Shown: one piece after another, positions 2,924-26,871 of the stretch
How the letters are laid out: each line of letters begins with the position of its first letter
How positions within the stretch are numbered: position 1 is the stretch's first letter
Virus record (IMG/VR): IMGVR_UViG_3300010883_018321
Span: 1-34,213 of that record
DNA length: 34,213 nucleotides
Origin: a virus
Strand: one strand, 5' to 3'
Made by a program: the position numbers and the translations under genes
Notes under the pieces: model-generated
Databases searched by the model: none
What the model was told of the DNA's origin: nothing
The model's input: only the letters and a program-made list of their open reading frames with translations

Positions 2924-3080
2924 ACTAATAGAAAGAGCAAAAACCAAACACTTAGAAGCAACACATGGAGCAAATGATGGATGGATGTGTAAGGGGCTTC
3001 TGGAGGAGTTAATAGAGTTAAAAGAATATTTAGATAATCTAAAACTGGAGAAAGAACTTGAAAGATATACAAGCATATAA
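2916..3080 (+). CDS. Small acidic helical protein, GTG start
   Basis: A 54-residue frame starting at GTG 2916, with GGTGGAG at 2902-2908 seven bases upstream. It overlaps the end of glutamine synthetase by 8 bases and the start of the next gene by 23. The protein is helical and charged, with a Trp-Met-Cys core and an LLEELIELKEYL stretch. That repeated Glu-Glu-Leu pattern resembles the helices of MazG-like and other small all-alpha proteins, but it is too short for a call. It fills an otherwise empty gap between two metabolic genes with good ribosome-binding spacing, which supports it being real. Confidence 0.5.
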   Translation: MNELIERAKTKHLEATHGANDGWMCKGLLEELIELKEYLDNLKLEKELERYTSI

Positions 3081-3897
3081 TGATGTAATAAAGAAGATGA
3101 GATTCTTCTTTCAAGAAGCAAAAGGGTTTATTGAAGTCCCTGCACAAAGTAGACAGAGTATCCTTGCAGCATGCGAAGATCCTGCAACCATATCTCAGTA
3201 CATATTTAGTGGCGTTAATTGGCCCCTTCCGCAAACAGGTCAAATGTGGCTCGAAGAGGAACTCTTAAATAATCCAGATATACCTGGAGTTTTTTGTATT
3301 ACAACCTCTTATAGGAATGAACCAAATCCAATAGAAGGAAGACATGATAAAATCTTTCCAATGTTTGAGTTTGAATCACACGGTACTATGGAAGATATGA
3401 TTAAATTGGAAGAAGAACTATTAATGAGTTTGGGGTTCCAAGATAAGGTCTCCCATACTACATACGAAGAAATGTCAGAGAAATATGATACTGACTTATT
3501 AGAAGCAGAGCACGAAGAACGAATGTGGAATGAAGATGGAAATATTGTATTTCTGCAAGATTTCCCAGAACGTACTCATCCCTTTTGGAATATGAAGCAC
3601 GGTGGCGGGGGTATTTATAATAAAGTAGATGTTATTATGCACGGGATGGAAACAATAGGTTCAGCAGAGCGTAGTTGTAATATCGATGAAATGTGGGATA
3701 GTTTCCATACTATTTCAGATGGAGAATATGCTAATTTATTATTTAATCATTTCGGAAAGAAGAGAGTAGAGGATGAATTAGAAGAATATTTAAAACATGA
3801 AATGTTTCCTAGATTTGGAGCCGGAATAGGCGTAACGAGAATGGCTAGAGCCTTTAAGCATAGTCACTTATTAAACGATAAGTCTTACTCTCTGTGA
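3058..3897 (+). CDS. Class II tRNA-synthetase-like, asparagine-ligase-type enzyme
   Basis: A 279-residue protein that is only the class IIb catalytic core, without the N-terminal anticodon-binding OB domain of AspRS/AsnRS. Motif 1 is GFIEVP (23-28), motif 2 is YRNEPNP...FPMFEFE with Arg86 and Glu88, and motif 3 is GAGIGVTR (254-261). METIGSAERS before motif 3 corresponds to the amino-acid/ATP-binding strand. Standalone cores of this type include archaeal asparagine synthetase (from aspartate, ATP and ammonia) and bacterial AsnA, so amide formation is the best guess; a tRNA-linked or other amino-acid-activating role is not excluded. The start is probably TTG 3058, with GGAG eight bases upstream; ATG 3097 would cut motif 1. 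Placement right after glutamine synthetase supports a nitrogen-assimilation pair. Confidence 0.75.
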   Translation: MKDIQAYNDVIKKMRFFFQEAKGFIEVPAQSRQSILAACEDPATISQYIFSGVNWPLPQTGQMWLEEELLNNPDIPGVFCITTSYRNEPNPIEGRHDKIFPMFEFESHGTMEDMIKLEEELLMSLGFQDKVSHTTYEEMSEKYDTDLLEAEHEERMWNEDGNIVFLQDFPERTHPFWNMKHGGGGIYNKVDVIMHGMETIGSAERSCNIDEMWDSFHTISDGEYANLLFNHFGKKRVEDELEEYLKHEMFPRFGAGIGVTRMARAFKHSHLLNDKSYSL

Positions 3898-3911: not shown

Positions 3912-4208
3912 ATGTATAGACCGCTACCAGAAAGTTTAACTATAAAAAAATCAAATATAGAAGGTCTTGGTTTATTTACTACTAAAAATATAGAGGCGGA
4001 ATATATATTTGGTATAACACATATTAAAGATCATAACTTTAAAAATGATTATATAAGAACACCCTTAGGCGGCTTTATAAATAACTCAAATAATCCTAAT
4101 TGTATTTTAATAGTTGATGATAACTATTTCAAATTAAAGACTATTGCTTTTATTAGAGACGGTGAAGAAATAACTTTAAAATATCAATATATGGGATATG
4201 AAGTATGA
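3912..4208 (+). CDS. SET-domain protein, putative lysine methyltransferase
   Basis: A 98-residue minimal SET domain. Visible signatures are GLGLFTT (18-24, the N-terminal strand that packs on S-adenosylmethionine), FINNSNNPNC (55-64, equivalent to the NHSCxPN cofactor/pseudoknot motif) and GEEITLKYQY (84-93, carrying the C-terminal catalytic Tyr). SET enzymes transfer methyl groups to protein lysines; phage versions of this short size are known, but targets are generally unknown. No post-SET cysteine cluster is present. The start has only a weak upstream ribosome-binding site, and the end overlaps the thioesterase gene by four bases, so it is likely read from the same transcript. Confidence 0.8.
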   Translation: MYRPLPESLTIKKSNIEGLGLFTTKNIEAEYIFGITHIKDHNFKNDYIRTPLGGFINNSNNPNCILIVDDNYFKLKTIAFIRDGEEITLKYQYMGYEV

Positions 4209-4576
4209 GATTTTTAACTCGAAAACTAGTAACACCTGCAGATTTAAACCCCCGTGGTACTTTACACGGAGGTCAGCTACTTAAATGGATAGACGAAGAG
4301 GGAGGCATACATGCCGCGGTTGATCTTGAATCTGGTCTCTTAGTCACTAAATATATATCAGAGATAAACTTTGTTCATCCCGTACTGCCAGGAGATGTAG
4401 TCGAAATAGGAATGGAAACTAAGGAGGTAGGAAAAACATCCATTACTATAGGATGCGAAGTAAAAAGTATGCAATCTGGAAGAGTAGTTCTAATTATTGA
4501 TAAAATAGTATATGTCCGTGTTGATAAATATGGACAACCTAAACTACACGGTGCTACTAGTTTCGAAGACGAGTAA
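4205..4576 (+). CDS. Hotdog-fold acyl-CoA thioesterase (YciA-like)
   Basis: A 123-residue single hotdog domain. The central helix signature NPRGTLHGGQLLKWIDEEGG begins at residue 15; Asn15 and Asp30 match the catalytic/binding positions of YciA-type acyl-CoA hydrolases, and the following strands (EINFVHPVLPGDVVEIGMET and TSITIGCEV) fit the family well. It would hydrolyse acyl-CoA to free CoA and acid in the cytoplasm, as a homo-oligomer. Why a phage carries it is unclear; altering membrane lipid or CoA pools is one inference. Translation is coupled to the SET gene by a four-base overlap. Confidence 0.82.
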   Translation: MRFLTRKLVTPADLNPRGTLHGGQLLKWIDEEGGIHAAVDLESGLLVTKYISEINFVHPVLPGDVVEIGMETKEVGKTSITIGCEVKSMQSGRVVLIIDKIVYVRVDKYGQPKLHGATSFEDE

Positions 4577-5031: not shown

Positions 5032-6915
5032 ATGGCTTGGAAAAGAATAGTCACAGCCAGTACGGTTACAGCAAGCGGAGTCTATAATGTTGCGGCTTTG
5101 GACTTACTGCCTGCACCTGCAACCGCTGCAGCCGACGGAAAGATATTAGTATCCGATGCTAGTGGGTATTTAGATTGGGGAAACGATAGCGATACTGTTT
5201 ACACGCATCCGACTAATTACTCTGTATTTGCTATTGATAGTACTTCTCAGAGTAATTACTGTGCAAGTGCAGCAGGTCTTGTATTAGTAACCGCCGATGA
5301 AGATGAATGTAAATGCGGTTCTGGCGGTACTTGGAGTGATCCAGGATATGCGGGTGAATGTGTTGGTGTAGCCTCTGCTCATACAGAAAATGCATGTTTG
5401 GCAGCTAGCGGTACTTGGACAGCTGGAACTTGTTCTGGAGGTTCTCTTACAAGTAATGTATGGCTTACGCCCGTTACAGGCGCTCTAGCTTCCGATGAAG
5501 TTTTAAGTCATTTATATTATGCATTGACTACTGATGCAATGGGTCATGTATCTGATTCTAAATTTGCTGCCGCTAAAAGACAACTTACATTAGCAGATAT
5601 CGGATATACCGGCAACCATGATGCTAATAAATATATTCACCATACTCACTATGATTCTGTTACTTTTTCTGATGAATATTCAGGCGGATCTAACCCTGTT
5701 GCTTACGGTGCTCAGTCTTCTATAACAACGTGGAGTAATGATGGTGTTACGGATAGAGTTTTATCTGGATTAGACATACAGCTTACTACCACTCCTGAAG
5801 GGCATATTGCTAAGTTTACAACTTCTTATTCCGAGAGATCCCTTACATTAGCAGATTTATCATACACAGGCGTTAATGATGCTGATAATTATGCCTCTTG
5901 GACTCTCGATACAACGGGGGCCACCGGTTCGGCTGGAGATGACAGCTTTGCAGTAATATCTTCAGATCAGACTCCGGTTGCTGGGACTAGTGTTAATGTT
6001 GTGAAGTTTGTTGGCGGTACGAATATGGAAGTCACCGTCGATAATTCGAATACTAATATAGCAAAATTGAGTTTTATTGGTACGGCCGATGCTTTGGGAG
6101 AATTAACTGATCTTGAAGCCGGCGTTGGACTAAATCTCAGATCTATAGTTTGTTCAAATAATGCCTATGATAATGAGACTGCTTGTCTAGCCGGCGGAGG
6201 AACCTGGAATTCTACTAATGGCAATGCTGGAGATATCACTAGTATCGACGAAGCTAATCCTAACGGATATATTACCCTAGCCTTAGCCGATGATTCGAAC
6301 TCTACACTTCATGCAGCTTCAACAAATGCTGTGACTAGTACAGGACATACACATGAAATTACCGCTACTTCGGAAGTCACAGCTTCTACTTCTGGTGATC
6401 TTCTCAAGACGGATGCTAATGGCCATCTAACTTTACAAAGTTTAGAAGTACAAGGGAGTTTTACAACAACAGGTGCAGGTTCTGTTATTTTAAATTCCTC
6501 TAATCTTGCTATTCAAGATGAAGAAATTCAAATAAATATGTCATCATCTTCTACATATAATAATAGTGATTCTGCTATCTTATTTGGTGGTACAAGCACA
6601 GCAGGGGGTGGTAAAATTATTAATGATATCTCAGAAGAGGCGTTTGTTTTTTCTGATTTTACTGCAGCAGATATCGCATCTCCGGCAAACGGGGGATCAA
6701 CAACTCAAGGAGTTTTACGTGATATTATTTGTGGAGATATTGCCGCCGCTTCTATCGTGTGCACTGCTATTACTGCCGCTTCTGCGGAATTTACAGGAAC
6801 TGCCGATATTGAAGATTTATTACTTGTAGACGATGTAGCGTTTAACCCTGCTACGGCCGCGGGTGTCCAAGGACAAATGCAATGGGATGGTACAACTTTA
6901 TTTTTATATGTGTAA
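5032..6915 (+). CDS. Fibre-like virion protein with Cys/Trp modules
   Basis: A 627-residue, Ser/Thr/Ala/Gly-rich protein typical of beta-structured phage fibres or appendages; no enzyme motif is seen. The N-terminus MAWKRIVTAST is nearly shared with the next two genes. Residues 93-134 hold two fused cysteine modules and residues 374-392 a third (see repeat entries). Two copies of a 37-residue repeat (165-201 and 251-287) contain GH, LTLAD and YTG landmarks. The C-terminal third (NLAIQDEEIQIN, then QGQMQWDGTTLFLYV) resembles the repeated beta segments and end of tail-fibre proteins. TTAGGAG lies 9 bases before the ATG. Probably late-expressed from the box at 4966. Exact location in the virion unknown. 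Confidence 0.7.
   Translation: MAWKRIVTASTVTASGVYNVAALDLLPAPATAAADGKILVSDASGYLDWGNDSDTVYTHPTNYSVFAIDSTSQSNYCASAAGLVLVTADEDECKCGSGGTWSDPGYAGECVGVASAHTENACLAASGTWTAGTCSGGSLTSNVWLTPVTGALASDEVLSHLYYALTTDAMGHVSDSKFAAAKRQLTLADIGYTGNHDANKYIHHTHYDSVTFSDEYSGGSNPVAYGAQSSITTWSNDGVTDRVLSGLDIQLTTTPEGHIAKFTTSYSERSLTLADLSYTGVNDADNYASWTLDTTGATGSAGDDSFAVISSDQTPVAGTSVNVVKFVGGTNMEVTVDNSNTNIAKLSFIGTADALGELTDLEAGVGLNLRSIVCSNNAYDNETACLAGGGTWNSTNGNAGDITSIDEANPNGYITLALADDSNSTLHAASTNAVTSTGHTHEITATSEVTASTSGDLLKTDANGHLTLQSLEVQGSFTTTGAGSVILNSSNLAIQDEEIQINMSSSSTYNNSDSAILFGGTSTAGGGKIINDISEEAFVFSDFTAADIASPANGGSTTQGVLRDIICGDIAAASIVCTAITAASAEFTGTADIEDLLLVDDVAFNPATAAGVQGQMQWDGTTLFLYV
5308..5361 (+). repeat. CKC-type cysteine mini-module
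   Basis: Residues 93-110 of the 5032 protein: Cys93, Cys95, GTW ending at Trp101, Cys110, preceded by ADEDE. The same layout (DED.CKC..GTW....C) occurs at 15476 in the giant virion protein. Its last Cys begins the next module. Confidence 0.6.
5359..5433 (+). repeat. C..E..C...GTW module
   Basis: Residues 110-134 of the 5032 protein: Cys110, a TENAC stretch with Cys122, SGTW with Trp129, then an extra Cys134. Fits the pattern C-x(n)-E-x-x-C-x(4)-G-x-W shared with other virion proteins here. Confidence 0.65.
5524..5634 (+). repeat. 37-residue fibre repeat, copy 1
   Basis: Residues 165-201 of the 5032 protein, starting LTTDAMGHV and ending YTGNHDANKY, with RQLTLADIG in between. It carries no cysteine module between LADIG and YTG. 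Confidence 0.75.
5782..5892 (+). repeat. 37-residue fibre repeat, copy 2
   Basis: Residues 251-287 of the 5032 protein, starting LTTTPEGHI and ending LADLSYTGVNDADNY. Uninterrupted. It is the closest relative of the interrupted copy at 7829. Confidence 0.8.
6151..6207 (+). repeat. C..E..C...GGTW module
   Basis: Residues 374-392 of the 5032 protein: Cys374 followed by SNNAY, then NETAC and GGGTW (Trp392). One of the cleanest copies. Confidence 0.7.
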
Positions 6916-6934: not shown

Positions 6935-9550
6935 ATGGCGTGGAAAAAAATATTAACTGCTACTGAGGGTTCTCCTTACGGCGCTAGTGTCGCCCAAGAA
7001 CACGTTTCTCCTTTTGATTTATCTGAAGGGTATGTGACTATTCTGTATACTCAGTTCGAACAATATGTAGGTATGCAGCGTAGATTCTTTAAAACAACTA
7101 CAGCAAGTGATACATATGAAAAAGTTCTTAAATACTATACAGGACGTTGTGTAAACCACACAGACGCGGGGGAAGCAGCAGCCGGTCTCGAAACATTATT
7201 GGCTTATGAGACACAAGAAATATGTGAAGCGGCAGGCCATACGTGGATGGAAACTGGATTATACTGGGCTCCTGATCTGGATAGCATTTTTGCTCATCCA
7301 GGATCTAGTGAAACCGTTGGCGGCGTAACGTATTCGGGTTATTCTACTGGTTACGGAAGTATCACCGATATTGAAACAGATGTAGGCTCATGTGGAGACG
7401 GTACTAGTGTTACACAGTATGAATGTGAGGTTGTTAATGGTAGTAGTTGGACAGTTCCTGCGAGTAATAGTGGACTTGAGCCTTTTGTTCAATATACAGG
7501 TACAGCTAATACAACCAATAATAAACATCTTGTATCCTTAACTAAAAAGCATGCATCTAATACCCTAGGCCATACAGTAGTACCTCCTACATGGAGTCAC
7601 ACTACCGGAAGTCTTTCTTTATATAATTTAGAACTCGGCTATCCTGGTACTGTACCAGGAGGCACTAATTGGAATGCATCCGATACTATGACCTCAGGGA
7701 CTCTTGCATTAGATGCTAATAAATATGTTCACTCTGAAACATCTCAAGCAACCGGACAAGACGGAGCACTAATAAATGATATTAGTATATTAGATCCTAG
7801 GGTTGTATTTTCCGGTTTTAGTATTGGTCTGACAGCAGATTCTGAAGGGCATGTTGATACATTTACACCTCCAGCCAGCACGCAACGTGCTCAGACTATG
7901 AATCAATTAAGTGTCTGTGATACTCTCGATACAACTGCTCCTTGGACTAATGAAGTTGCCTGCCTAGCGGATGGCGGGACTTGGGAGCTTTATACAGGAG
8001 TTGATGATGCCGATAGGTACGACAGATTTGCCCTTGTGGCTGAAATGATTAACGGTAACGGATTGGGACAAAATTACATTACCTCTTCGTTAGATGCCTC
8101 TCCGTTCGGAAATAACTATGGTAATACAGTACAGCTAGCACTAGGAGATAGTAGTGATCTAATAACTCCCAGCTCACTTCTATACGGAGAACCGTTCGTC
8201 ACAGCGTCGGCAGAACTTACAACAACTACAGACACTGACGATACTCTGACATATACCGTTAATGCGGACTACGGTTCTGGCGGAAGAATAAAAGATCTTC
8301 GCGCCGCACGTCCTCTGTTCTTCTCTACTCCAGCAGATATTACTGGCAACTGGTGGAACACCTTCACGGGTGCTGAGCACCTCTTTTATTACGACTTAGG
8401 CGGGTACTACGCAACACCTACTGTTCACCTGAAGGCTCCTAATGCTCCTTTATCTTCTTATACTACTAATTCACTTGCATCCGATAACCATACACATAAA
8501 ATTAATGCCGAATGGAATCTTGGAACAGACAATACAGATGTTTACGATAGCAGTACTGAAGCGGAGGGTTACGGTTCTGGAACTTGGACACCTACTTTAA
8601 TTAGATCAAGGAAGTCCGATCTAACAGACGGACCTAGTAATAATGCTGGAGAGCTAAAGTTATTTAATGTTGTAGTCTCTGACGAATTTTTACATGTAGG
8701 CTCTACTGCCTCTTTAGGTACTATAGTACACGAATTTTATGAGATAACAGCTGATTATAGTGCCGGTGCTACGGTGACATTTTCTACTTATTCTGCCGGC
8801 GTTGGTAGCAGTCCTATATTTTCTTCAGTAGATAGAGTAACATATGGAAGTAGTCTAACTCTAACTACGGATTATACGGTAGCCTCAAACGGTGATATTA
8901 CTCTTGTGGGCGCTCATTCAGGCGGAGAGTTATCAATAGAATTTGGTTATATCACTATTGGTGAAACTCAATTTCTAACTTCTGCCGTAGATGAAGCTGG
9001 AAGATTTCCTATTAGTGTTGTTACAGATACTACTGACGACCCTTATTGTATGCACGCAGACGAGCACACAACAGACGGCGGAGGAACAGACTGGACAGCA
9101 TATGAAAATGTTGTCGATTGCCTGGCTGCTGAAGGCAGGTGGAGTCGCTATGCTGTAACATCTTGGGCTAGTGTCAATTCTGGTATAGTATTTGCACACG
9201 GAGAGTCTGCTAGTAATTCCTATCAAGACTATACAGATAAGACGACTAGGGTTTGGAACAGTGCGTCGGGCGACGATATAATCATAGGAAGAATTGAATT
9301 TCAAGAGACGGCGGATTCTGGCGCTACTTGGTCGGCGACTCGGAAGATAATAGTTGAAAATATAGGAAAAGATGCAGACGGCTATCGTCCAAATATTACT
9401 TCTACTGGTACTTTTACATCTTCTGGAACTGCTCCTGATACGATCACTAGTTTAACAGCGGGGGATGTAATCATAGGAACTGTTGGCAGAACTCCTGCTA
9501 GTGGAAGTCTATCATACGAGTCTGGGATATTAAGAATATTTGCATCATAA
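6935..9550 (+). CDS. Fibre-like virion protein with four Cys/Trp modules
   Basis: An 871-residue Ser/Thr/Gly-rich protein, partly paralogous to the 5032 product: same N-terminus (MAWKKILTATEGS), same DNHTH segment (HTHKI here, HTHEI there) and a 37-residue repeat now interrupted by a 26-residue module (7829-8020). Four cysteine/tryptophan modules lie at residues 72-104, 153-172, 328-350 and 705-736; almost all cysteines in the protein belong to them. The rest is predicted beta-rich, and the stretch around residues 590-670 (Y.ITADYSAG...VTFSTYSAG) looks like a fibre or adhesin domain. AGGAG precedes the ATG. Most likely a tail fibre, appendage or capsid-surface protein; no lyase or glycosidase motif was recognised. 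Confidence 0.7.
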   Translation: MAWKKILTATEGSPYGASVAQEHVSPFDLSEGYVTILYTQFEQYVGMQRRFFKTTTASDTYEKVLKYYTGRCVNHTDAGEAAAGLETLLAYETQEICEAAGHTWMETGLYWAPDLDSIFAHPGSSETVGGVTYSGYSTGYGSITDIETDVGSCGDGTSVTQYECEVVNGSSWTVPASNSGLEPFVQYTGTANTTNNKHLVSLTKKHASNTLGHTVVPPTWSHTTGSLSLYNLELGYPGTVPGGTNWNASDTMTSGTLALDANKYVHSETSQATGQDGALINDISILDPRVVFSGFSIGLTADSEGHVDTFTPPASTQRAQTMNQLSVCDTLDTTAPWTNEVACLADGGTWELYTGVDDADRYDRFALVAEMINGNGLGQNYITSSLDASPFGNNYGNTVQLALGDSSDLITPSSLLYGEPFVTASAELTTTTDTDDTLTYTVNADYGSGGRIKDLRAARPLFFSTPADITGNWWNTFTGAEHLFYYDLGGYYATPTVHLKAPNAPLSSYTTNSLASDNHTHKINAEWNLGTDNTDVYDSSTEAEGYGSGTWTPTLIRSRKSDLTDGPSNNAGELKLFNVVVSDEFLHVGSTASLGTIVHEFYEITADYSAGATVTFSTYSAGVGSSPIFSSVDRVTYGSSLTLTTDYTVASNGDITLVGAHSGGELSIEFGYITIGETQFLTSAVDEAGRFPISVVTDTTDDPYCMHADEHTTDGGGTDWTAYENVVDCLAAEGRWSRYAVTSWASVNSGIVFAHGESASNSYQDYTDKTTRVWNSASGDDIIIGRIEFQETADSGATWSATRKIIVENIGKDADGYRPNITSTGTFTSSGTAPDTITSLTAGDVIIGTVGRTPASGSLSYESGILRIFAS
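7148..7246 (+). repeat. Long C..E..C...GHTW module
   Basis: Residues 72-104 of the 6935 protein: Cys72, a longer Ala/Glu-rich loop, TQEIC with Cys97, EAAGHTW with Trp104. Same end pattern, with the first loop expanded. Confidence 0.65.
7391..7450 (+). repeat. C..E.C...GSSW module
   Basis: Residues 153-172 of the 6935 protein: Cys153, TQYEC, VVNGSSW with Trp172. Slightly diverged copy. Confidence 0.6.
7829..8020 (+). repeat. 37-residue fibre repeat, copy 3, interrupted
   Basis: In the 6935 protein: starts LTADSEGHV, reaches NQLS, then 26 extra residues, then resumes with YTGVDDADRY. Against copy 2 the length difference is one residue before the junction plus the 26-residue module. Confidence 0.8.
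7916..7984 (+). repeat. C..E..C...GGTW module inside repeat copy 3
   Basis: Residues 328-350 of the 6935 protein: Cys328, a Thr-rich loop, TNEVAC, LADGGTW with Trp350. With one flanking residue before and two after it forms the exact 26-residue insertion. Confidence 0.75.
9047..9142 (+). repeat. Long C....C...GRW module
   Basis: Residues 705-736 of the 6935 protein: Cys705, a Thr/Gly loop containing DWTAYENV, then VDC and LAAEGRW with Trp736. The Glu before the second Cys is Asp here. Confidence 0.55.
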
Positions 9551-10072: not shown

Positions 10073-13000
10073 ATGAGTTCCCACCCTTATCATGAGTATC
10101 TCAAAAAAACATCTACTCCCTGGCTATTGCCAACAGAATATTGGATAGAGGGAGTTGAAACTTCCAGTAGTGATCTAGCCGAAGATGGCATAGAGCACTA
10201 TCAGCATAACCAGCCAGGAAATTTATTATTTCCTACCCCCCTTATAGTAGAGTCAGGTAGCTACAATTTGGATGTTCCACAGGGTGACGCATCTAAGTAT
10301 ACAAGATTAGTAGACTCTGGAGGAATTGTACATCCTGTACATTTAGGAAAATTTAGACCTTACGGTGTTGCCTCAACCTCAGGTGAATACTTTATCTCAG
10401 ATTTTATTCCAGAAGGTGCTACACTAACAGGTATAGAGATAGCTGTATTTTCCAGAGCCGAAGAAATCTCAAATGGTGCAGTAGCTTCCTGCACTCTTGG
10501 TACTGCCGATATAAAACGAAATAAGCATGAAGCAAATTTATATTTCTATGAGTCTGGTCAAATCTCGCCTACTCCAGAAACTACTACTTATTTAGGGATG
10601 GTGCAGTCTGGTGTGTATACAGGTAAACCCCCTATAACACAGATAACTCCGTCCCACGGAGTTATTGAGGATGGCGGATATCATTATACTCCATCTGATT
10701 GGAGTACTCCTGATACTACAAATTGGACAGACTCTCCGTTCCAATATCCATCAAATAAAACTTCAAAACCTCAAACTGCGGATGACCTGGGAGGCTCCGG
10801 TAACCATCCTTCCATAACCGATAAGAATATTTCTAGATACTCTTATGGACCAAATTCTGAATTAGGAATAGTGAATGAAGAGGCTATGAGATCATTTGCT
10901 GGAACACAAATAGGAAACGGTCTTTCTTTTACAGAAATGGGAGGCGGTATTGAACCGACCTTTTCGTATATGGAAATGTCGGCGCAGCAGCTTTTAGATT
11001 TAGATAACAATTTATGGTTAAACATATCCATAGGAGAATCAGAAGACATAAGTAATCCTTTGCCTTGGAATATAGGTGCAGTATATGTGAAACTCCATTT
11101 TATAGAAAAAGACTGGACTATTGTTCCTATTACAATTGAAGCCACTCCTAGACGAGGTTACTATAAAGGCGGTATTCCCTATAATTTTTCCGCAGAGAAG
11201 TATCAGTGGGGTTTACAGCAGGATAGCTTAGCCAATGCTCAGGCAGGCTTGGATGCTGCTTCATTGATATATTTGTCTAATCAGTATCGCGCCATGCGCT
11301 TTCTCGGAGGACCGACGAATCCAGATAACCCGGAGTATAACTATGGTATTTGTATAAGTGAAGATCTTTCACAATTTAGATTTGATGTGAATGGCTATGT
11401 AATAACAAATCATCAGGAGTGCCTAGACCAAGTTGCTACTCCTACAACTCATCACGACTCTATCTTTTACAGACGCGATTCATCCGGCTATGGTGGGGGT
11501 ATGCCAAACTATGGTAATACTGCTCCAGTCCAATGGGAGTTTGCATACGAGGAACTGGTATATCAAATGGAGCAAGGATTAGTAAAGGGATACGACGGAG
11601 AGATAGCAACAGAACTAGGAGATATTCTAGAGGGGAATCGAACCCCCTCATACTCTGACTGGGTTTCCTTCCCATGGGCCTCCATCTCCTACGACGATAG
11701 ATATGATCATTTGGAAACTTATAGTCAACTTTATCCTCAGTTTCCAGAGACTACAGAACTTGAAAGTTTCCAAGAGGCGCATCTACCGGATGGTAATTAT
11801 AATACTGTAGGTCTATTTTATAGTAGATATGATCACACCGATTTGTCCGTTCCTGACACGGTGGCAATAGACCCTTATTATAGTGTACCAGAGAGCGGTG
11901 AAGCCTGGTATGAGCAAGGTTACAACCTAAATCACAGATATTATCAAGGATTTATGATGCATAATAAGCTAATAATGAGCTATGATCTATCTGCTATAAA
12001 GTATTATTATCCAGTTATAGGACTGCAAATTCCTGAAACTACTTCACATGCTGATGGCCTAGTCTTCGATTGGAATAATGATCCTATATTTGAAGACTCT
12101 ACTCTCACCAACGATTCAGCGACATTAGAAACCAAGAGAGGCCTGCTTCTAACTGAAGGGGCGGGAACAGGCATAACTAGTGAATGGATATGCGAAGCCT
12201 ATATCGAGGGTCCTTGCAATGATCAAGGCACTCCACCGGTTCATGATACGGGGGAGGACGCGTGTGCTTCACTTGGTCTGGAATGTTCTCAGGTTCAGGA
12301 GTTCACTCCGCAAGAGGGTGGTGGAAGCATGTGGGAAGAGTTTGAAACAAACGACCCTACTATTAATTCATGTCAATGGGACTTCTCCGAAAATTTGGGG
12401 CATTCAGATGATGATATGATTGAGCTCCCGACAATAGCCCGCTGTCATACAGATCCACAGGTGGAGTTAGAATATGTAACTCCCTATCCGTATATATTTG
12501 AAAGGCCCCTCCGTTCCGAGGGCCATTGTGTTGATATGGGACCTGACCCACTCGCCCCAGGGAATGGGAATACTCAAGAGCGCCCAACATGGTCGACTAT
12601 ATTTTGGGAGTATAATAGTAATCAACAAGCGTGTGAAGAGGCAGGGTATTATTTTATTCGCTCTGGACACCCGCATCCGACTGAAGGAGCAGATTCTAAT
12701 CTTACAAATCTAACCGGAGGTATGGGTCTTGAAGGATACAAGCAACGCTTTGTGCAAAAGTTTTTTATTCCTTATATTGCTACTAATATGTATCCTAATT
12801 CTAATAATAACGGATACGGGATAGGAGGCGATTTACTGGCTAGCTTACAATCGAAGGTAGCTAATAATAAGTATACTGTAGAAAACCTAGAATTAGAGTT
12901 TATTCATGGAGATATTATTATGGATAATGCTATGGGTATAGAAACACAACAAGGATGGTGGCGTAAATATCAAACTATTCCCAAGGACTTAATAGTATAC

Positions 13001-16000
13001 CAAGCAGTTCCTCCTACAGTAAGAGAAACAAAAGAACTTATAGATATTCCCGATAAAGATAGTTCGGATGTTGGCGCAGTTTCTATTCATGGAATTGCAG
13101 GAGTAAGTTACACAAGTTTAGCAGAGAATGTTTATATATATGGAAATAAAATTAAGATGATGGGCAGTGAAACTCAGTTTGTCACGCCTACCCTACCGCA
13201 AACAGATACTTATTTCTGCCTGGACGTCCGGGCTAATAATATGTCCTCGGCTACTGCCGTCGCTGGCTGTGTTACTGATGCATTCTGTAATCCTATTATA
13301 GATGTGGATTGCGGGACAGAGTATGAAACTGGCGCTTCAATTAATCCAATATGTACATATGATGCCGTTTCTGGTTGTACTAATGATACTGCTTGTAATT
13401 ATTATTGGGATGTATATCCAACTGCTCCATCCTGCGCAACAATAACTGATACTGGATGCTACTGGGCAACAGCACTAGCATGTTATAGTCTTACAGATAG
13501 CACGATTATTCCAATGTTCACATGTGATCCTGTTTGTGGCGACGGCTATATATCAGGGGTAGATAATTCGAATTATCCAATTCACGGATGTATGGACCCC
13601 CTTGCTTGTAACTATGAGCCTTTAGCACATGTAGCGTACACCCCGACTACGTGTTATTATGCCGGTAGCGAAAATTTAGCTGCTTATCCCGACGGAGAAC
13701 ATAATTTATTATATGTCGATTGTCAGAATAATTGTTTAGAAGATGCAGATGGAGATGGTATTTGTGATGAAAATGAAATTTATGGCTGTCAAGATGATAC
13801 CGCATGTAACTATGATGCTGATGCAACATCTGATAATGGTACTTGTTATTATACGTATGAGAATGATGGAATCCATGATTGTTCTAATGTTTGTCTACAT
13901 GATTTTAATTCTGATGGTATCTGCGATGAAGAGGATATACCCGGTTGTATGACGGCCGGTGCTACTAATTATAATCCCAACGCCAACATCGATAATTCAC
14001 CATACATTATAGAAGTTGGCGATGATATTATAATTGCAGATGTGACTACTTTCACTTGGGTTGTTGATCTTTGGTTTAGAATTGAAATTGAGGGAGTCGG
14101 CACAGGTAGTGGTGGTGTAGATGAATGGAAAGCTTCTGTCATCCCTAATGGTAGTGGTAGTTCTTTGGGAGAAACTTGGCCATACAATGGGATAGATATG
14201 TCATCTGCCCCTTATCGTGTTGAGGGTGTATTAGGTGCAAGAATAGATATTAGTTGGGGAAGTAACACAGGACACACATTAGGCGATTATTGGGATGTTC
14301 AAGTATCCGAGTCTGGTGTGTATAATGTGACTATGGGTAATTCCGGGATCCCCACTAATACATATGTCGACGTTAATGCTAGTTGCTATTGGCTAGCAGC
14401 TGGCTCTAATATGCAGTGTCCCGCGCCAGCAGGACAGCCAGGTGGACCCATATTTTGTTGCACAGGGACTCTTGCATATTCTTATGTTTGTAATAACGAC
14501 GACGGAATTGCATTTTGTCTTAGTATAGATGCTAATTCTGATGGTGTAGGAGGAAGTTTTTTGGAGGAATTCTGCGATGAGGCAGAAGTTAATGGATGCT
14601 ATGATGAAGATGCATTAAACTATGATGCATTGGCTACATATGATTCTGCTTGTGCAGATTATTATAATTGCAATTATCCAGACGAAGCAGGAAGCTGTGT
14701 CTATAACCTAGAAAATCCTGGTGATTTATATTTCTTGGGAATTCCCCCTGATGCAGACACAAACTTTTATACTAATGAAGTTTTTTATCCACCCTCAGGA
14801 ACTGTGATGGAGCCTGTTTTTGGTAGCGGGACTTGGACTCAAATAGATGCAACTACAGGGCAAATGGCCACAAATCCTCAGCAAGAAAAATGGTTCACAG
14901 TTCATGGACACCAATTGGCTTTCAACAGATGGTACGGGGGCCCAAGGATATCGAATGAAGGAACTCATTATCTACGAACACACACATATGAGAGATATGA
15001 CGCTCATAACATAGATAGCGAGACTAATTATTACAATGATCCGCTTAAGCTTCAAAATATAATACAAACTCCCAATATTGATGTTAATCACTTTTCTGAA
15101 TATTATACAGGAGTGAATGAGGAAAGCGGGTTTGGTATGCCTAACGCTCTTACTTTATCATTTATGTTAAGTCTAAACGGAATAGAGAATAATTGGAATA
15201 TTTTTTCTCAAACCTGGAGATATGATCCAGGGTTATTTTATATAAGAATTATACCAGTATACGATGACGGTACTGCGCCTCAGCATGCGAATAATGATGG
15301 TATAGCGTCACAGGAATTATCAGAACCTGTCCCTTTACAATTTAGTGAGGAGGAGTATAATGGTTTAGGACACCGGCTAAATTTTGCAAACTATTGCACA
15401 AACACTCCGGAATTCGGTGACGCGACTATTGTCGGACTGGGCAATATAAATACAATGAAATGGGATGAAGATAGCTGCAAGTGCCAGAGCGGCACTTGGG
15501 ATGGTAGCAATTGTACTGAAGGCGGAGTACAGACCGGGAATACCTGGGTTGAAAATAGTGATTTTACAACTTCAGGACGAATAGGTACAAGCTATAATAC
15601 TGTAGCTCAAGCAGCTGCCGCTGGTAATTATGACCTCTTTCCGGGTTATCCCTTTGACGGGTACGGGGAATGGGAAGAAGTAAAGGTAGATATAAATTTA
15701 TCTGACTTTTCCTTTTTTGATATTCCACTAAATGAGGATAGCGGTATAGCTCTTACTAATATTTTTAGAATAGAATTTAGATATATGTCAAGGCCTCCTG
15801 CTACGCGTAACGGTTTACCGACTATATGGAACGAGGCTGGTACGCCCTCTCAGGGGATTAAGTATACTATGGCAGCAATAGACTCTGTTAAGGTAACTGC
15901 TGCACTTTCTACTGGTGATAATGAACTACCTGCTGATCATATAGTTCTAGTTTCAGAGGATGGTTTTATGCCCGCAGATCTGAATATTGCGCTAGGTGAA

Positions 16001-16267
16001 ACTGTCCAATGGGTAAATCTTGAAGGTTCACATAATGTAGATGGATCAACTGAGACTTATCCTAATAACCCTGCTTCCTTTAATAGCGGTCTTGCTTCTT
16101 CTGAACTTTGGAAATATACATATAAATTTGGTAAGTCCGGTACTTACGAGTATGAATGTACTCCGCATACGCAAAGAACAGATGATTCGCATACGGGAGG
16201 TACAATCACGATAGAGCGAGGGCCCACAAAGAAAGGTGAAAAGTTTCTAGATTATGAAGAATCATAA
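10073..16267 (+). CDS. Giant virion protein: Ca/Cys repeats plus cupredoxin end
   Basis: A 2064-residue protein, the largest here. The first about 1050 residues are Tyr/Pro/Gly-rich and beta-predicted without a recognised domain. About 1065-1544 holds tandem cysteine repeats of the type GC..D..ACNY.......NGTCYY alternating with acidic DADGDGICDE loops that look able to bind calcium. A CKC-type module lies at 1802-1814. Residues 1954-2049 are a plastocyanin-like (cupredoxin) domain with His1987, Cys2029 and His2032. Such repeats and copper-type domains are common in secreted marine bacterial adhesins, so this is likely a host- or particle-binding appendage. No clear ribosome-binding site precedes ATG 10073. 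The end overlaps the next gene by 14 bases. Confidence 0.75.
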   Translation: MSSHPYHEYLKKTSTPWLLPTEYWIEGVETSSSDLAEDGIEHYQHNQPGNLLFPTPLIVESGSYNLDVPQGDASKYTRLVDSGGIVHPVHLGKFRPYGVASTSGEYFISDFIPEGATLTGIEIAVFSRAEEISNGAVASCTLGTADIKRNKHEANLYFYESGQISPTPETTTYLGMVQSGVYTGKPPITQITPSHGVIEDGGYHYTPSDWSTPDTTNWTDSPFQYPSNKTSKPQTADDLGGSGNHPSITDKNISRYSYGPNSELGIVNEEAMRSFAGTQIGNGLSFTEMGGGIEPTFSYMEMSAQQLLDLDNNLWLNISIGESEDISNPLPWNIGAVYVKLHFIEKDWTIVPITIEATPRRGYYKGGIPYNFSAEKYQWGLQQDSLANAQAGLDAASLIYLSNQYRAMRFLGGPTNPDNPEYNYGICISEDLSQFRFDVNGYVITNHQECLDQVATPTTHHDSIFYRRDSSGYGGGMPNYGNTAPVQWEFAYEELVYQMEQGLVKGYDGEIATELGDILEGNRTPSYSDWVSFPWASISYDDRYDHLETYSQLYPQFPETTELESFQEAHLPDGNYNTVGLFYSRYDHTDLSVPDTVAIDPYYSVPESGEAWYEQGYNLNHRYYQGFMMHNKLIMSYDLSAIKYYYPVIGLQIPETTSHADGLVFDWNNDPIFEDSTLTNDSATLETKRGLLLTEGAGTGITSEWICEAYIEGPCNDQGTPPVHDTGEDACASLGLECSQVQEFTPQEGGGSMWEEFETNDPTINSCQWDFSENLGHSDDDMIELPTIARCHTDPQVELEYVTPYPYIFERPLRSEGHCVDMGPDPLAPGNGNTQERPTWSTIFWEYNSNQQACEEAGYYFIRSGHPHPTEGADSNLTNLTGGMGLEGYKQRFVQKFFIPYIATNMYPNSNNNGYGIGGDLLASLQSKVANNKYTVENLELEFIHGDIIMDNAMGIETQQGWWRKYQTIPKDLIVYQAVPPTVRETKELIDIPDKDSSDVGAVSIHGIAGVSYTSLAENVYIYGNKIKMMGSETQFVTPTLPQTDTYFCLDVRANNMSSATAVAGCVTDAFCNPIIDVDCGTEYETGASINPICTYDAVSGCTNDTACNYYWDVYPTAPSCATITDTGCYWATALACYSLTDSTIIPMFTCDPVCGDGYISGVDNSNYPIHGCMDPLACNYEPLAHVAYTPTTCYYAGSENLAAYPDGEHNLLYVDCQNNCLEDADGDGICDENEIYGCQDDTACNYDADATSDNGTCYYTYENDGIHDCSNVCLHDFNSDGICDEEDIPGCMTAGATNYNPNANIDNSPYIIEVGDDIIIADVTTFTWVVDLWFRIEIEGVGTGSGGVDEWKASVIPNGSGSSLGETWPYNGIDMSSAPYRVEGVLGARIDISWGSNTGHTLGDYWDVQVSESGVYNVTMGNSGIPTNTYVDVNASCYWLAAGSNMQCPAPAGQPGGPIFCCTGTLAYSYVCNNDDGIAFCLSIDANSDGVGGSFLEEFCDEAEVNGCYDEDALNYDALATYDSACADYYNCNYPDEAGSCVYNLENPGDLYFLGIPPDADTNFYTNEVFYPPSGTVMEPVFGSGTWTQIDATTGQMATNPQQEKWFTVHGHQLAFNRWYGGPRISNEGTHYLRTHTYERYDAHNIDSETNYYNDPLKLQNIIQTPNIDVNHFSEYYTGVNEESGFGMPNALTLSFMLSLNGIENNWNIFSQTWRYDPGLFYIRIIPVYDDGTAPQHANNDGIASQELSEPVPLQFSEEEYNGLGHRLNFANYCTNTPEFGDATIVGLGNINTMKWDEDSCKCQSGTWDGSNCTEGGVQTGNTWVENSDFTTSGRIGTSYNTVAQAAAAGNYDLFPGYPFDGYGEWEEVKVDINLSDFSFFDIPLNEDSGIALTNIFRIEFRYMSRPPATRNGLPTIWNEAGTPSQGIKYTMAAIDSVKVTAALSTGDNELPADHIVLVSEDGFMPADLNIALGETVQWVNLEGSHNVDGSTETYPNNPASFNSGLASSELWKYTYKFGKSGTYEYECTPHTQRTDDSHTGGTITIERGPTKKGEKFLDYEES
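13265..14704 (+). repeat. Tandem GC..D..ACNY / DxDxDGICDE repeats
   Basis: About 480 residues of the giant protein with at least five GC-starting units (for example GCMDPLACNY, GCQDDTACNY, GCMTAGATNY, GCYDEDALNY) joined by acidic loops (DADGDGICDENE, DFNSDGICDEED, DANSDGVGG). A non-repeat beta insert of about 100 residues without repeats splits the fourth and fifth units. Confidence 0.8.
15476..15514 (+). repeat. CKC-type mini-module, second copy
   Basis: Residues 1802-1814 of the giant protein: Cys1802, Cys1804, SGTW with Trp1809, Cys1814, preceded by WDEDS. Matches the module at 5308 but is four residues shorter before the last Cys. Confidence 0.6.
15932..16219 (+). other. Cupredoxin-like domain at C-terminus of giant protein
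   Basis: Residues 1954-2049. Strand order and landmarks follow plastocyanin-like domains: HIVLVSEDGFMPADL, then GETVQWVNLEGSHNVDG (His1987), TYPNNPASF, then GTYEYECTPH (Cys2029, His2032) and GGTITIERG. The axial Met expected five residues after the second His is Asp2037, so a blue type 1 copper site may be altered or absent; His2040 could substitute. Confidence 0.75.
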
Positions 16268-17123: not shown

Positions 17124-17864
17124 GTGTCTAAAAAGACCAAAGATAACTCCATCGCACCACTAGATTTAAATAAAAAATTAATCCAAAATAAAAGACAAGC
17201 CATGTCAAAACTTAAAAGAATAATGAAAGATAGTTTTCTTGAGTTTAGAAACTTAAATCAAAAGAAAATGTATAGTACTATGTCTTCTAAGGAAATTACC
17301 TTTGTGGGAGGGCCCGCGGGCGTAGGTAAAACTTATATAGTATCACACTATGCTCTTAAATCTCTAATTGAAAAAGGAACTCCTTATGATGGAATAGTTA
17401 TAACAAAACCACTAGTAGAAGCTAATGGTGAAAAGATTGGATTTCTCCCCGGAGATTTATCTGAAAAAACTGATCCTTTTATGATGTCTTATTGGTATAA
17501 TATTCGTAAATTTATAGGTAGTGATACCATGGATATTCTAATACATGAAAAAGTAATAGAAGTCATTCCCTTAGCTTTTATGAGGGGATTAACTTTAGAT
17601 AATAAAATAGTTATTTTGGATGAGGCTCAAAATGCAACACCAGAACAGATTAAAATGTTTTTAACTAGGATAGGAGACCGAAGTAAATATATAATTTGTG
17701 GAGACGTAGAGCAAACTGATCGTAAAGACGCTAATGGTTTGGCAGATAGTCTTACAAGATTTACTAATATGAATGAAATCGGTATTTGTACTTTTAACAA
17801 AGAAGATATTGTTAGAAATAATCTAATTAGTAAAATATTAGATAGGTATCAAGATGATGTTTGA
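17124..17864 (+). CDS. phoH: PhoH-like P-loop ATPase
   Basis: A 246-residue ATPase of the PhoH family, common in marine phages. Walker A is GGPAGVGKT (62-70), Walker B VILDEAQ with Asp166, and the family strands GIVITKPLVEANGEKIGFLPG and ICGDVEQTDRKDANGL are present. The latter matches the GDxxQ-D sensor region. PhoH proteins bind nucleotides and have been linked to RNA handling and phosphate stress, though the phage role is unsettled. The start is GTG 17124 behind a perfect AGGAGG seven bases upstream. The N-terminal 50 residues are basic and probably flexible. Confidence 0.92.
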   Translation: MSKKTKDNSIAPLDLNKKLIQNKRQAMSKLKRIMKDSFLEFRNLNQKKMYSTMSSKEITFVGGPAGVGKTYIVSHYALKSLIEKGTPYDGIVITKPLVEANGEKIGFLPGDLSEKTDPFMMSYWYNIRKFIGSDTMDILIHEKVIEVIPLAFMRGLTLDNKIVILDEAQNATPEQIKMFLTRIGDRSKYIICGDVEQTDRKDANGLADSLTRFTNMNEIGICTFNKEDIVRNNLISKILDRYQDDV

Positions 17865-19424: not shown

Positions 19425-19691
19425 ATGTCAATTAAAATAAATCCAAAGCAGGATAGAATAGTAATAGATATAGTAAAGGTAGATAATAAAACAGAGTCCG
19501 GTATTATAATTCCTGACTCTGCAAAAGAACGTCCATATGAAGCTACAGTTCTCGCGGTAGGTCCAGATGTTAAAAATGTATCAGAAGGCGAAGTTGTAAT
19601 ATTTTCTAAGTATTCCGGTACAAAAGTAAAAGTATTGGAAACTGAATATCACATTATACGTGAAGACGATATCATAGCAGGCATAGCTTAG
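19425..19691 (+). CDS. GroES-like co-chaperonin (Cpn10)
   Basis: An 88-residue co-chaperonin, near the usual length of about 95. The N-terminal strand (KINPKQDRIVIDIVKV), the mobile loop with its hydrophobic GroEL-binding triplet (ESGIIIPDSA, residues 24-33), the GPDVKNVSEGEVVIFSKYSGT strand pair and the closing EYHIIREDDIIAGI are all clear. Like T4 gp31 or phage GroES homologues it should cap host GroEL and help fold capsid proteins. TTAGGAGG sits six bases before the ATG. Its expression with structural genes fits that role. Confidence 0.93.
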   Translation: MSIKINPKQDRIVIDIVKVDNKTESGIIIPDSAKERPYEATVLAVGPDVKNVSEGEVVIFSKYSGTKVKVLETEYHIIREDDIIAGIA

Positions 19692-21837: not shown

Positions 21838-22292
21838 TGGGATTTATAACAGATCAACTTAGAAAACGATTAGAAGAAAGAAAGAAAAGTAAAAAACTGG
21901 GTGCAACTTTTAATAAGACACCAAAAAAAGATATTACTTTTTTACCTGCCGATACACCAGCATCTGCTATGACAGAACATGTAAATAATAGAATACTGTT
22001 TTTAATGAATCAAGTAGGCGGAGCAGATAAATTCGGAGAGGGAGATTTTACAATACAATATATTGACCAAACAAAAGATACTGATATAATTCAAAAAAGT
22101 ACCAAATCTTTAGCAAGAAAAACAGCTAAAGATTCTTCTAGTGTATTGGGCCCCGGTAATAGAATTCCTGAGTACGATTGGGAACCAGTAGAAGAAGAGA
22201 TTGTATCTGAGTTAGCGCCAAATATAAATGTTAACCAATTACAGTTTTATATGATTATAATAGAATACACACATATAAAAGAGGTTGTATGA
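21837..22292 (+). CDS. Unknown protein, possible tail/neck component
   Basis: A 151-residue protein with a very basic start (RKRLEERKKSKKLG), a middle of mixed structure and an aromatic C-terminal strand (QLQFYMIIIEYTHI). No recognised motif. It begins one base before the end of the upstream gene and overlaps the protease-like gene by four bases, so it belongs to the same translation-coupled series. Confidence 0.55.
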   Translation: MGFITDQLRKRLEERKKSKKLGATFNKTPKKDITFLPADTPASAMTEHVNNRILFLMNQVGGADKFGEGDFTIQYIDQTKDTDIIQKSTKSLARKTAKDSSSVLGPGNRIPEYDWEPVEEEIVSELAPNINVNQLQFYMIIIEYTHIKEVV

Positions 22293-22876
22293 ACAGACTA
22301 ATTTATATTACACAGGATATTCCCGGATGTGGATCAAAGGGAAATGAGGGAGAAGATGCTCTCGTTAGGAATATATTAGACCAAGTATTACTTTTGAGTA
22401 CTGTAGATAAGGATAAGCCAATCCATGTTTTAATAGAATCAAATGGAGGATGTGTAAAAACTGCTCTATCTATTTATGATATTCTAAAGATGAGTGAAGC
22501 TCCTATATATACATATGCTTTATCTGAAGTAAGTTCTGCTGGTGTTTTAATTTATTTAGCAGGATCTAAAAGATTTGCTTTTAAGCATAGTCAATTTATG
22601 ACTCATCCCAGTACTATGTCATTACATAGTACTGATAAGGACTTTGATCAAATAGCGGATACCTTAAAAGAACAAAATAAAAGAACAAAAATGATATATA
22701 AGGGCAGGTTACGCCTCAGTGAAAAAAAATATAATAAGCTTCATACTTCAACTAATTATTTATGGCCCGATGAAGCAAAGAAATATAAAATAGTAACAGA
22801 AATTATAGAAAAGTTTCCTGAAGACTTACTGTTCGGTTCTCTGGACTTTACATTAGAAGTTGGGGGAGAGTGCTGA
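22289..22876 (+). CDS. ClpP-like serine protease homologue
   Basis: A 195-residue ClpP/crotonase-fold protein. Landmarks: IESNGGCVKTALSIYDIL (49-66, the oxyanion Gly-Gly), SEVSSAGV with Ser83 at the nucleophile position, and MTHPS with His106 as general base. The third residue, normally Asp in the RDxFM strand before an EEA helix, appears as Asn156 in TNYLWPDEA, so catalysis may be weakened. ClpP-type proteases in phages often process capsid proteins, but a separate prohead protease lies at the window end, so this one may act elsewhere. Confident on fold, less on activity. Confidence 0.8.
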   Translation: MNRLIYITQDIPGCGSKGNEGEDALVRNILDQVLLLSTVDKDKPIHVLIESNGGCVKTALSIYDILKMSEAPIYTYALSEVSSAGVLIYLAGSKRFAFKHSQFMTHPSTMSLHSTDKDFDQIADTLKEQNKRTKMIYKGRLRLSEKKYNKLHTSTNYLWPDEAKKYKIVTEIIEKFPEDLLFGSLDFTLEVGGEC

Positions 22877-26149: not shown

Positions 26150-26871
26150 TTATTAGTAAAAATCAATTACTAATTCTTAGCAGTGGGCATATAATAAAAG
26201 CTTCTTCGTTTGATAAAAAAAGAGATAAGCTTTTAACCTTTGCAAGAAATAAGTATACAGAAATAAATGTAATAAATGTACATTCTGTTAAAGAAGAACT
26301 ATATAAGTATATTGGAGCACAAGGTAGAAGTATAGTGTGCGGACAAGATACAAGTTTTTTAACAAATAAAAATCAGTATATTATTCCTAAAAAGAATGAT
26401 AAACTAATATGGGTGTCTCGCTATTTACCAATTTTTGGAAAGCGTAGTGCAAGTGAACAACAGTTAGAAATACTGGCAGCTTCCTTGACAAACATTAATA
26501 CAAAAAGACCTAACAAGGGGAGCGTTCAAGCGATTCCCAGATATTTAGGAGCTTTGAATAAGAAGTCTCTAAAGTCTTTATTAAATAAAATGAATTTAAC
26601 ACATTTTAAGCACTTAACTCAAACCGGCAAAGAAATTATATTAATTATACTTAATAGGTTAGGTATACCGTGCGACGGACAAACTAAGCATGCTGCAACA
26701 CAAGTTACAGGAACTATACGTCTTAAATCTAAAAATGTAAGACGCAAAAAATTAATAAAACTAGAAAGTCTTAGATATATTAATAAAAGTAAGGCTAAGG
26801 GAATAGAATTATCATTTAATACAAATATTAAAAACGTAGTTATAGGAAGTTTTATATGTCAACCAAGTTAA
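26134..26871 (+). CDS. Unknown basic protein
   Basis: A 245-residue, Lys/Arg-rich protein. N-terminal strands (NTLIISKNQLLILSSGHII) read like a small beta domain, followed by a basic helical middle (SLKSLLNKMNLTHFKHLTQT) and a basic C-terminus. The KRPNKGSVQAIPRYLGAL segment could touch nucleic acid. No family recognised. It sits between bS21 and the large terminase, overlapping both (16 bases each), so it is expressed with the packaging genes; a nucleic-acid-binding role is possible. Confidence 0.55.
   Translation: MANTLIISKNQLLILSSGHIIKASSFDKKRDKLLTFARNKYTEINVINVHSVKEELYKYIGAQGRSIVCGQDTSFLTNKNQYIIPKKNDKLIWVSRYLPIFGKRSASEQQLEILAASLTNINTKRPNKGSVQAIPRYLGALNKKSLKSLLNKMNLTHFKHLTQTGKEIILIILNRLGIPCDGQTKHAATQVTGTIRLKSKNVRRKKLIKLESLRYINKSKAKGIELSFNTNIKNVVIGSFICQPS

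Follow-up and report, generated by a model that had tools for sequence, protein, structure and literature searches.

A short cysteine- and tryptophan-containing module that splits a phage fibre repeat and recurs in otherwise unrelated protein families, including T4 gp8 and gp10

The window analyzed here, which is the whole 34,213-base stretch of IMG/VR record IMGVR_UViG_3300010883_018321, contains terminase and portal genes and a cluster of fibre genes at 5.0-16.3 kb. In the fibre protein p6935 (6935-9550), a repeat that would otherwise read from LADLS directly into YTG contains exactly 26 additional residues at that junction (V327-L352, nt 7913-7990), and the question raised by this locus is whether those residues are a discrete unit that was inserted into an intact repeat or merely the product of repeat divergence. 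The region reads ...GLTADSEGHVDTFTPPASTQRAQTMNQLS-[VCDTLDTTAPWTNEVACLADGGTWEL]-YTGVDDADRY, where the bracketed part is the insert (residues 327-352). The features that bear on this comparison are:

7913-7990, + strand: 26-residue insert V327-L352 of p6935 (profile split; comparison with paralogues and cultured phages; module HMM, 15.3 bits)
7916-7984, + strand: insert core, C328-W350 of p6935
7805-8026, + strand: host fibre repeat with the insert, p6935 residues 291-364 (hmmsearch with the insert-free repeat profile)
5500-5649, + strand: insert-free paralogous fibre repeat a, in p5032 (...LTLADIG-YTGNHDANKY)
5758-5907, + strand: insert-free paralogous fibre repeat b, in p5032 (...LTLADLS-YTGVNDADNY)

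A profile of the insert-free repeat was constructed from the two p5032 copies and one copy each from two cultured marine phages, CRP-207 (Roseobacter) and HTVC309P (Pelagibacter), both of which contain the repeat without the insert and were found when the repeat alone was used as query. This profile matched p6935 at residues 291-325, the left half of the repeat alone, with 10.8 bits, compared with 7.2 bits for the best of 2000 p6935 shuffles. The match restarts at residues 353-364 (YTGVDDADRY), with 26 residues left between. BLAST independently paired p6935 with p5032 (E 1e-4). No whole-protein relatives of either p6935 or p5032 were found in IMG/VR, among phages or in five related contigs, a Pfam search of p6935 gave no match, and no terminal repeats flanking the insert were found.

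The first-pass annotation, made from the sequence alone, had claimed an exact 26-residue insertion and had reported that paralogous copies run from LADIG or LADLS straight into YTG. The former held to the residue, with the insert-free profile matching on both sides, and the latter held for the two p5032 copies. It had also stated that its reading would be refuted if the insert were present in all homologues and the repeat similarity were lost in a profile alignment. On testing, neither was the case: the insert is missing from four relatives of the repeat, and similarity to the profile persists on both sides of it. A fourth, poorer copy of the repeat in p6935 (approximately residues 200-265) has a different, cysteine-free extension just after YPG, and since this lies near the same place, the position is probably a loop that tolerates insertions.

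The insert conforms to a module that is typically C-x10-C-x3-G-G-x-W, approximately 22 residues in length, with two cysteines and a tryptophan and with short strands flanking the core. The p6935 insert meets this spacing (C328-C343-G-G-T-W350), except that its first loop is 14 residues instead of 10. Approximately 10 copies of the module are present in the window by pattern, and those outside the insert are:

7148-7246, + strand: diverged module, p6935 C72-C97-W104 (pattern; count of cysteine pairs)
7391-7450, + strand: module, p6935 C153-C164-W172 (pattern)
9047-9142, + strand: diverged module, p6935 C705-C729-W736 (pattern)
5260-5334, + strand: module-like stretch, p5032 C77-C93/C95-W101 (pattern)
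5359-5418, + strand: module, p5032 C110-C122-W129 (pattern)
6151-6207, + strand: canonical module, p5032 C374-C385-W392 (module HMM, 26.1 bits; weak Gp10_D3 match at 63-87, E 0.041)
29321-29398, + strand: N-terminal module, p29198 C42-C60-W67 (alignment; predicted strand-helix-strand; also in the orthologues from loci L002 and L003/L004)
29459-29515, + strand: second module, p29198 C88-C99-W106 (HMM, 30.3 bits)
30281-30337, + strand: third module, p29198 C362-C373-W380 (HMM, 32.5 bits; absent from the 63%-identical L002/L122 orthologue)
15395-15499, + strand: module-like stretch in the 2064-aa fibre protein p10073 (pattern only)

Matches to C-x9-15-C-x3-4-G-x-W numbered three in p5032, two in p6935 and two in p29198, against a shuffle expectation of 0.004-0.006, and none of 5000 shuffles reached the observed counts. 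The protein p6935 has eight cysteines, and each of them belongs to one of its four module pairs. As a separate observation on the last protein listed, p10073 (window 10073-16267) carries a C-terminal plastocyanin-like copper-binding domain (residues 1965-2033) as well as cysteine repeats of the GC.D..ACNYD.DA type at approximately residues 1094-1300.

To survey the module more widely, IMG/VR was searched with DNA patterns covering the motif's second half, which yielded more than 100 loci (given L numbers below), a lower bound. An HMM built from the fetched loci, with the consensus TCSDPSYTTQAACEAAGGTWTP, matched their ORFs 284 times at 10 bits or more and had no such match in reversed or shuffled ORFs. 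With this HMM the p6935 insert scored 15.3 bits, compared with 9.0 or less in shuffled controls. After the modules were masked, the host proteins fell into 61 groups without detectable mutual similarity, two of them from cellular genomes. One group (group 12; L163, lambda gpK-like, phrog_30) was judged a false positive, the matched stretch following an HSHP motif typical of the native peptidase domain. The constancy of the second cysteine, the glycine and the tryptophan in the fetched set is partly built in because the DNA patterns required them. Independent support came from a tblastn search of cultured phages with the consensus, whose hits were T4-like gp8 proteins and one protein from Vibrio phage GR7B. 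The host families that could be named by PHROGs or Pfam are all virion proteins, namely head-tail adaptors, head closure, tail protein, lambda gpL and gpJ relatives, tail fibres, baseplate wedge and virion structural protein; many hosts are unnamed. Dozens of protein families that are otherwise unrelated carry the module, with host sequence continuing on both sides of it. In one protein of unknown family (L014 11206-11595, also in L018 and L055), five copies occur in tandem (CSLGPxYTTQxACxxAGGxW).

Outside phages, the module was rare among the bacterial genomes sampled, being detected at E 1e-6 in 2 of 299 genomes from the phylum of a gammaproteobacterial match and in 8 of 198 from the phylum of a Turneriella match. 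The Turneriella family was enriched, 6 of its 13 genomes having matches at 1e-4, all of them in large proteins. One Turneriella MAG (L220, G006) has modules in a 1908-aa frame, and a large module protein from the Turneriellaceae (L021) has a lipoprotein-like N terminus. A search of plasmids for the module gave no match.

In at least seven families, some proteins have the module and related ones lack it: p29198, the phrog_3287 virion proteins, lambda gpL, lambda gpJ, an Ad2 head-tail adaptor, a marine tail protein and T4-like gp10. Between L094 and L041 (80% identity), the difference at the module is a single clean gap of 22 residues. Between p29198 and its L122/L002 orthologue (63% identical, net difference of 31 residues), the third module is found only in the window protein, and more distant orthologues have module-like stretches elsewhere, at places where the window and L002/L122 proteins have none. 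Among Ad2-type head-tail adaptors the module differs between L187/L205 and L038, which are 40% identical. Modules are present in the phrog_10775 tail protein of metagenome contigs, but not in that of Pelagibacter phage HTVC103P or Vibrio phage CHOED; lambda gpL-like proteins have them at places where those of Synechococcus phage S-H1, KBS-S-2A and Kintu do not; and a 30-residue insert in lambda gpJ-like proteins is absent from Halomonas H4907 and Burkholderia KS9. The gp10 proteins of T4, Acj9, avDM6 and EBPL have the module, while that of Vibrio phage R10Z lacks the stretch. Since varied cultured relatives are without the module, insertion is the simpler direction of change. The head-tail adaptor family of L149 was left out of these clean cases because a larger extra region surrounds its module, although solved head completion proteins aligned without the module.

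These data bear directly on ordinary repeat divergence, by which the extra residues would have grown in place and would resemble modules only by chance. In its favor are the unrelated extension at nearly the same place in the fourth p6935 repeat copy and the modest HMM score of the p6935 insert. Against it are the counts that no shuffle reached and the presence or absence of the module in related proteins across families, which refute it for the family, and we regard this explanation as virtually ruled out. The annotation's further claim, that the module is a discrete insertable unit that leaves its host repeat intact, is supported by the versions with and without it across unrelated families, and there is little doubt that the unit is of this kind.

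Short in-frame inserts in unrelated genes are also produced by Rickettsia palindromic elements, which are conserved palindromic DNA, and a second explanation is accordingly that the module is mobile DNA of a selfish kind, whose short in-frame insertions the protein merely tolerates. The in-frame presence and absence in many genes is what such an element would produce. However, at positions where modules from different host families and contigs have the same residue, the same codon was used in 43% of cases compared with 40% expected from contig codon usage, so that codon choice is near chance while the residues are kept. Module RNAs folded no better than shuffles (z -1.5 to +1.0), the p6935 insert is without flanking repeats, and all identified hosts are virion proteins. 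Furthermore, modules in different proteins of one contig were no more alike (45%) than those of different contigs (51%). The near-random codons, together with the lack of terminal repeats and RNA hairpins, indicate that it is the protein and not the DNA that is conserved. The selfish DNA explanation is therefore very unlikely, and the module, whose DNA is not conserved and shows no hairpin, does not meet the definition of a Rickettsia palindromic element. This pattern is more probably the mark of an old constraint at the protein level than of recently mobile DNA.

The module is also present in two T4 proteins that were reached via Acj9 homologues, without use of the DNA pattern. In T4 gp8, the segment CSIASLTDKDECLKLGGKW (C142-W160) has the form C142-x10-C153-x3-G-G-K-W160, and in T4 gp10, the segment CVGADSDDEVECSVLGGTW (C331-W349), which lies within Pfam Gp10_D3, has the form C331-x10-C342-x3-G-G-T-W349; both match the canonical spacing exactly. 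Acj9 gp8 aligned with T4 gp8 (1n7z) without gaps. As both proteins carry this spacing, solved structures already hold the module, unnamed. A hand-written, consensus-like module string matched Phage-Gp8 at 140-164, and the p5032 module matched Gp10_D3 at 63-87 (E 0.041), both below the curated cut-offs. The p5032 match covers the module only (11.9 bits against a cut-off of 27) and p6935 had none, so membership of these two proteins in Phage-Gp8 or Gp10_D3 was rejected; the module is shared, with no whole-domain match above cut-off. In gp8 (PF09215, Phage-Gp8; 1n7z, 5iv5) the module is a fixed part of one protein, and neither there nor in gp10 domain 3 (PF22670, Gp10_D3; 5iv5, 2fl8) is it described as a shared unit. 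The R10Z protein implies that the module is optional even in gp10. Within what was searched, the module has thus been present in solved structures without being recognized as shared.

An AlphaFold2 model of a 39-residue stretch of p29198, a module with its flanks run with 35 other modules, predicted a strand (9-12), a helix (20-25) and a second strand (30-33), with a core pLDDT of 85-90. The model of whole p29198 was poor (mean pLDDT 40.8), and the local order of its N-terminal module was again strand-helix-strand. As the two strands of the 39-residue model are its only ones, they presumably pair and so bring the ends together, although this is inferred from secondary structure only. The expectation that the module ends lie close was thus partly met, in that the predicted fold would join them; the distance itself is inferred. 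Foldseek and VIA-align searches of the PDB with the 39-residue model gave no match and missed T4 gp8 even though it carries the module, and a PDB sequence search with the module alone returned nothing, the query probably being too short. Matches in BFVD were weak (E 0.2-5) and included gp10-like, baseplate wedge and tail-pin proteins.

Pfam, PHROGs and NCBIfam do not list the module as a unit, and a search of open papers for motif strings and phage microdomains found nothing relevant. The claim that no named element resembles it therefore holds for those libraries and papers, with the limitation that the module sits unnamed within Pfam Phage-Gp8 and Gp10_D3. Two known kinds of insert were considered for p6935 and rejected: an intein, as p6935 has no Hint match, unlike the terminase of the same window, and a phage Ig-like insertion domain, as the insert is only 26 residues and p6935 has no Pfam match. 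Ig-like domains are beta-sandwiches of approximately 80-100 residues that are often terminal. Those of phage virion proteins resemble the module in being discrete, optional units in unrelated virion proteins, but the module is internal, has approximately 22 residues and contains two cysteines. Optional virion domains are known, while a unit so small that extends across gpJ and gpL relatives, head-tail adaptors and T4 gp8 and gp10 is undescribed in the libraries and open papers searched. The module is best regarded as a kind of optional insert in phage virion proteins that is unusual in its size, its breadth of hosts and its presence in T4.

With respect to function, the most likely reading is a disulfide-stapled knob that supports loop rigidity or contact between subunits, although the disulfide, pairing of the end strands and the function itself are all inferred. 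In this view, the module occupies loops, which would lie at the surface, in proteins of the neck, tail tip, baseplate and fibres, and its two cysteines would form a disulfide once the virion leaves the reducing cytoplasm. The flanking strands would pair, holding the ends together and leaving the host fold undisturbed, and the knob would serve the virion by making a loop stiffer or by adding a contact between neighboring subunits. Spread between genes would probably be old and due to ordinary recombination, with no dedicated DNA element. A disulfide that forms outside the cytoplasm fits with the module being confined to virions and to proteins that are probably exported.

Two other functions were considered. 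The module might be a ligand-binding decoration in which a tryptophan knob binds glycans on host or particle surfaces, as do Ig-like domains of phage virions. Its sites in fibres, tail tip and baseplate and its occurrence in large Turneriellaceae proteins, one with a lipoprotein-like N terminus, are in keeping with this. However, proteins of the neck and the head-tail connector, which are not directed at the cell surface, make up many of the hosts, and the constant tryptophan would equally suit a core residue; the explanation remains possible, and there are no binding data. Alternatively, the cysteines might pair between subunits as covalent cross-links. Two constant cysteines in virion proteins would allow this, and there is a precedent in phage Milano, in which a disulfide network stabilises the contractile tail (PMC10811340). 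The module would likewise use cysteines for stability, but no shared insertable module is reported for Milano, and the fixed C-x10-C spacing, the paired cysteines (eight in the four modules of p6935) and the compact predicted fold favor pairing within the module, making cross-linking unlikely.

Returning to the stapled knob, a bolder reading is that it represents an unnamed micro-domain of approximately 22 residues with one disulfide, which has spread as an exchangeable structural part of tailed-phage virion proteins (tail tip, neck, baseplate and fibres) and a few bacterial proteins, with T4 gp8 and gp10 as the first solved examples; the data at hand do not decide for or against it. Such a module would be a loop insert of natural origin whose ends are defined, and it provides a marker for virion proteins among the unnamed genes of marine phages.

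Several other genes were noted in the window and its relatives. The terminase large subunit (26856-29198) has an intein-like Hint segment at approximately residues 146-290, and the relatives in L002-L006 align along this segment as well. In the closest relative (L002, 4480-5712), approximately 1.2 kb of DNA interrupts the terminase gene after residue 61; this stretch contains no long ORF on the + strand, did not match Rfam and could possibly be an intron or other element. The window also encodes a glutamine synthetase-like phage protein (1943-2923; Gln-synt_N and Gln-synt_C), a class II aminoacyl-tRNA synthetase-like protein without an obvious anticodon domain that is possibly an asparagine synthetase-type enzyme (3058-3897), a short SET-domain protein (3912-4208), a 4HBT thioesterase (4205-4576), PhoH (17124-17864), a GroES-like co-chaperonin (Cpn10; 19425-19691) and a ClpP-like protease (22289-22876).
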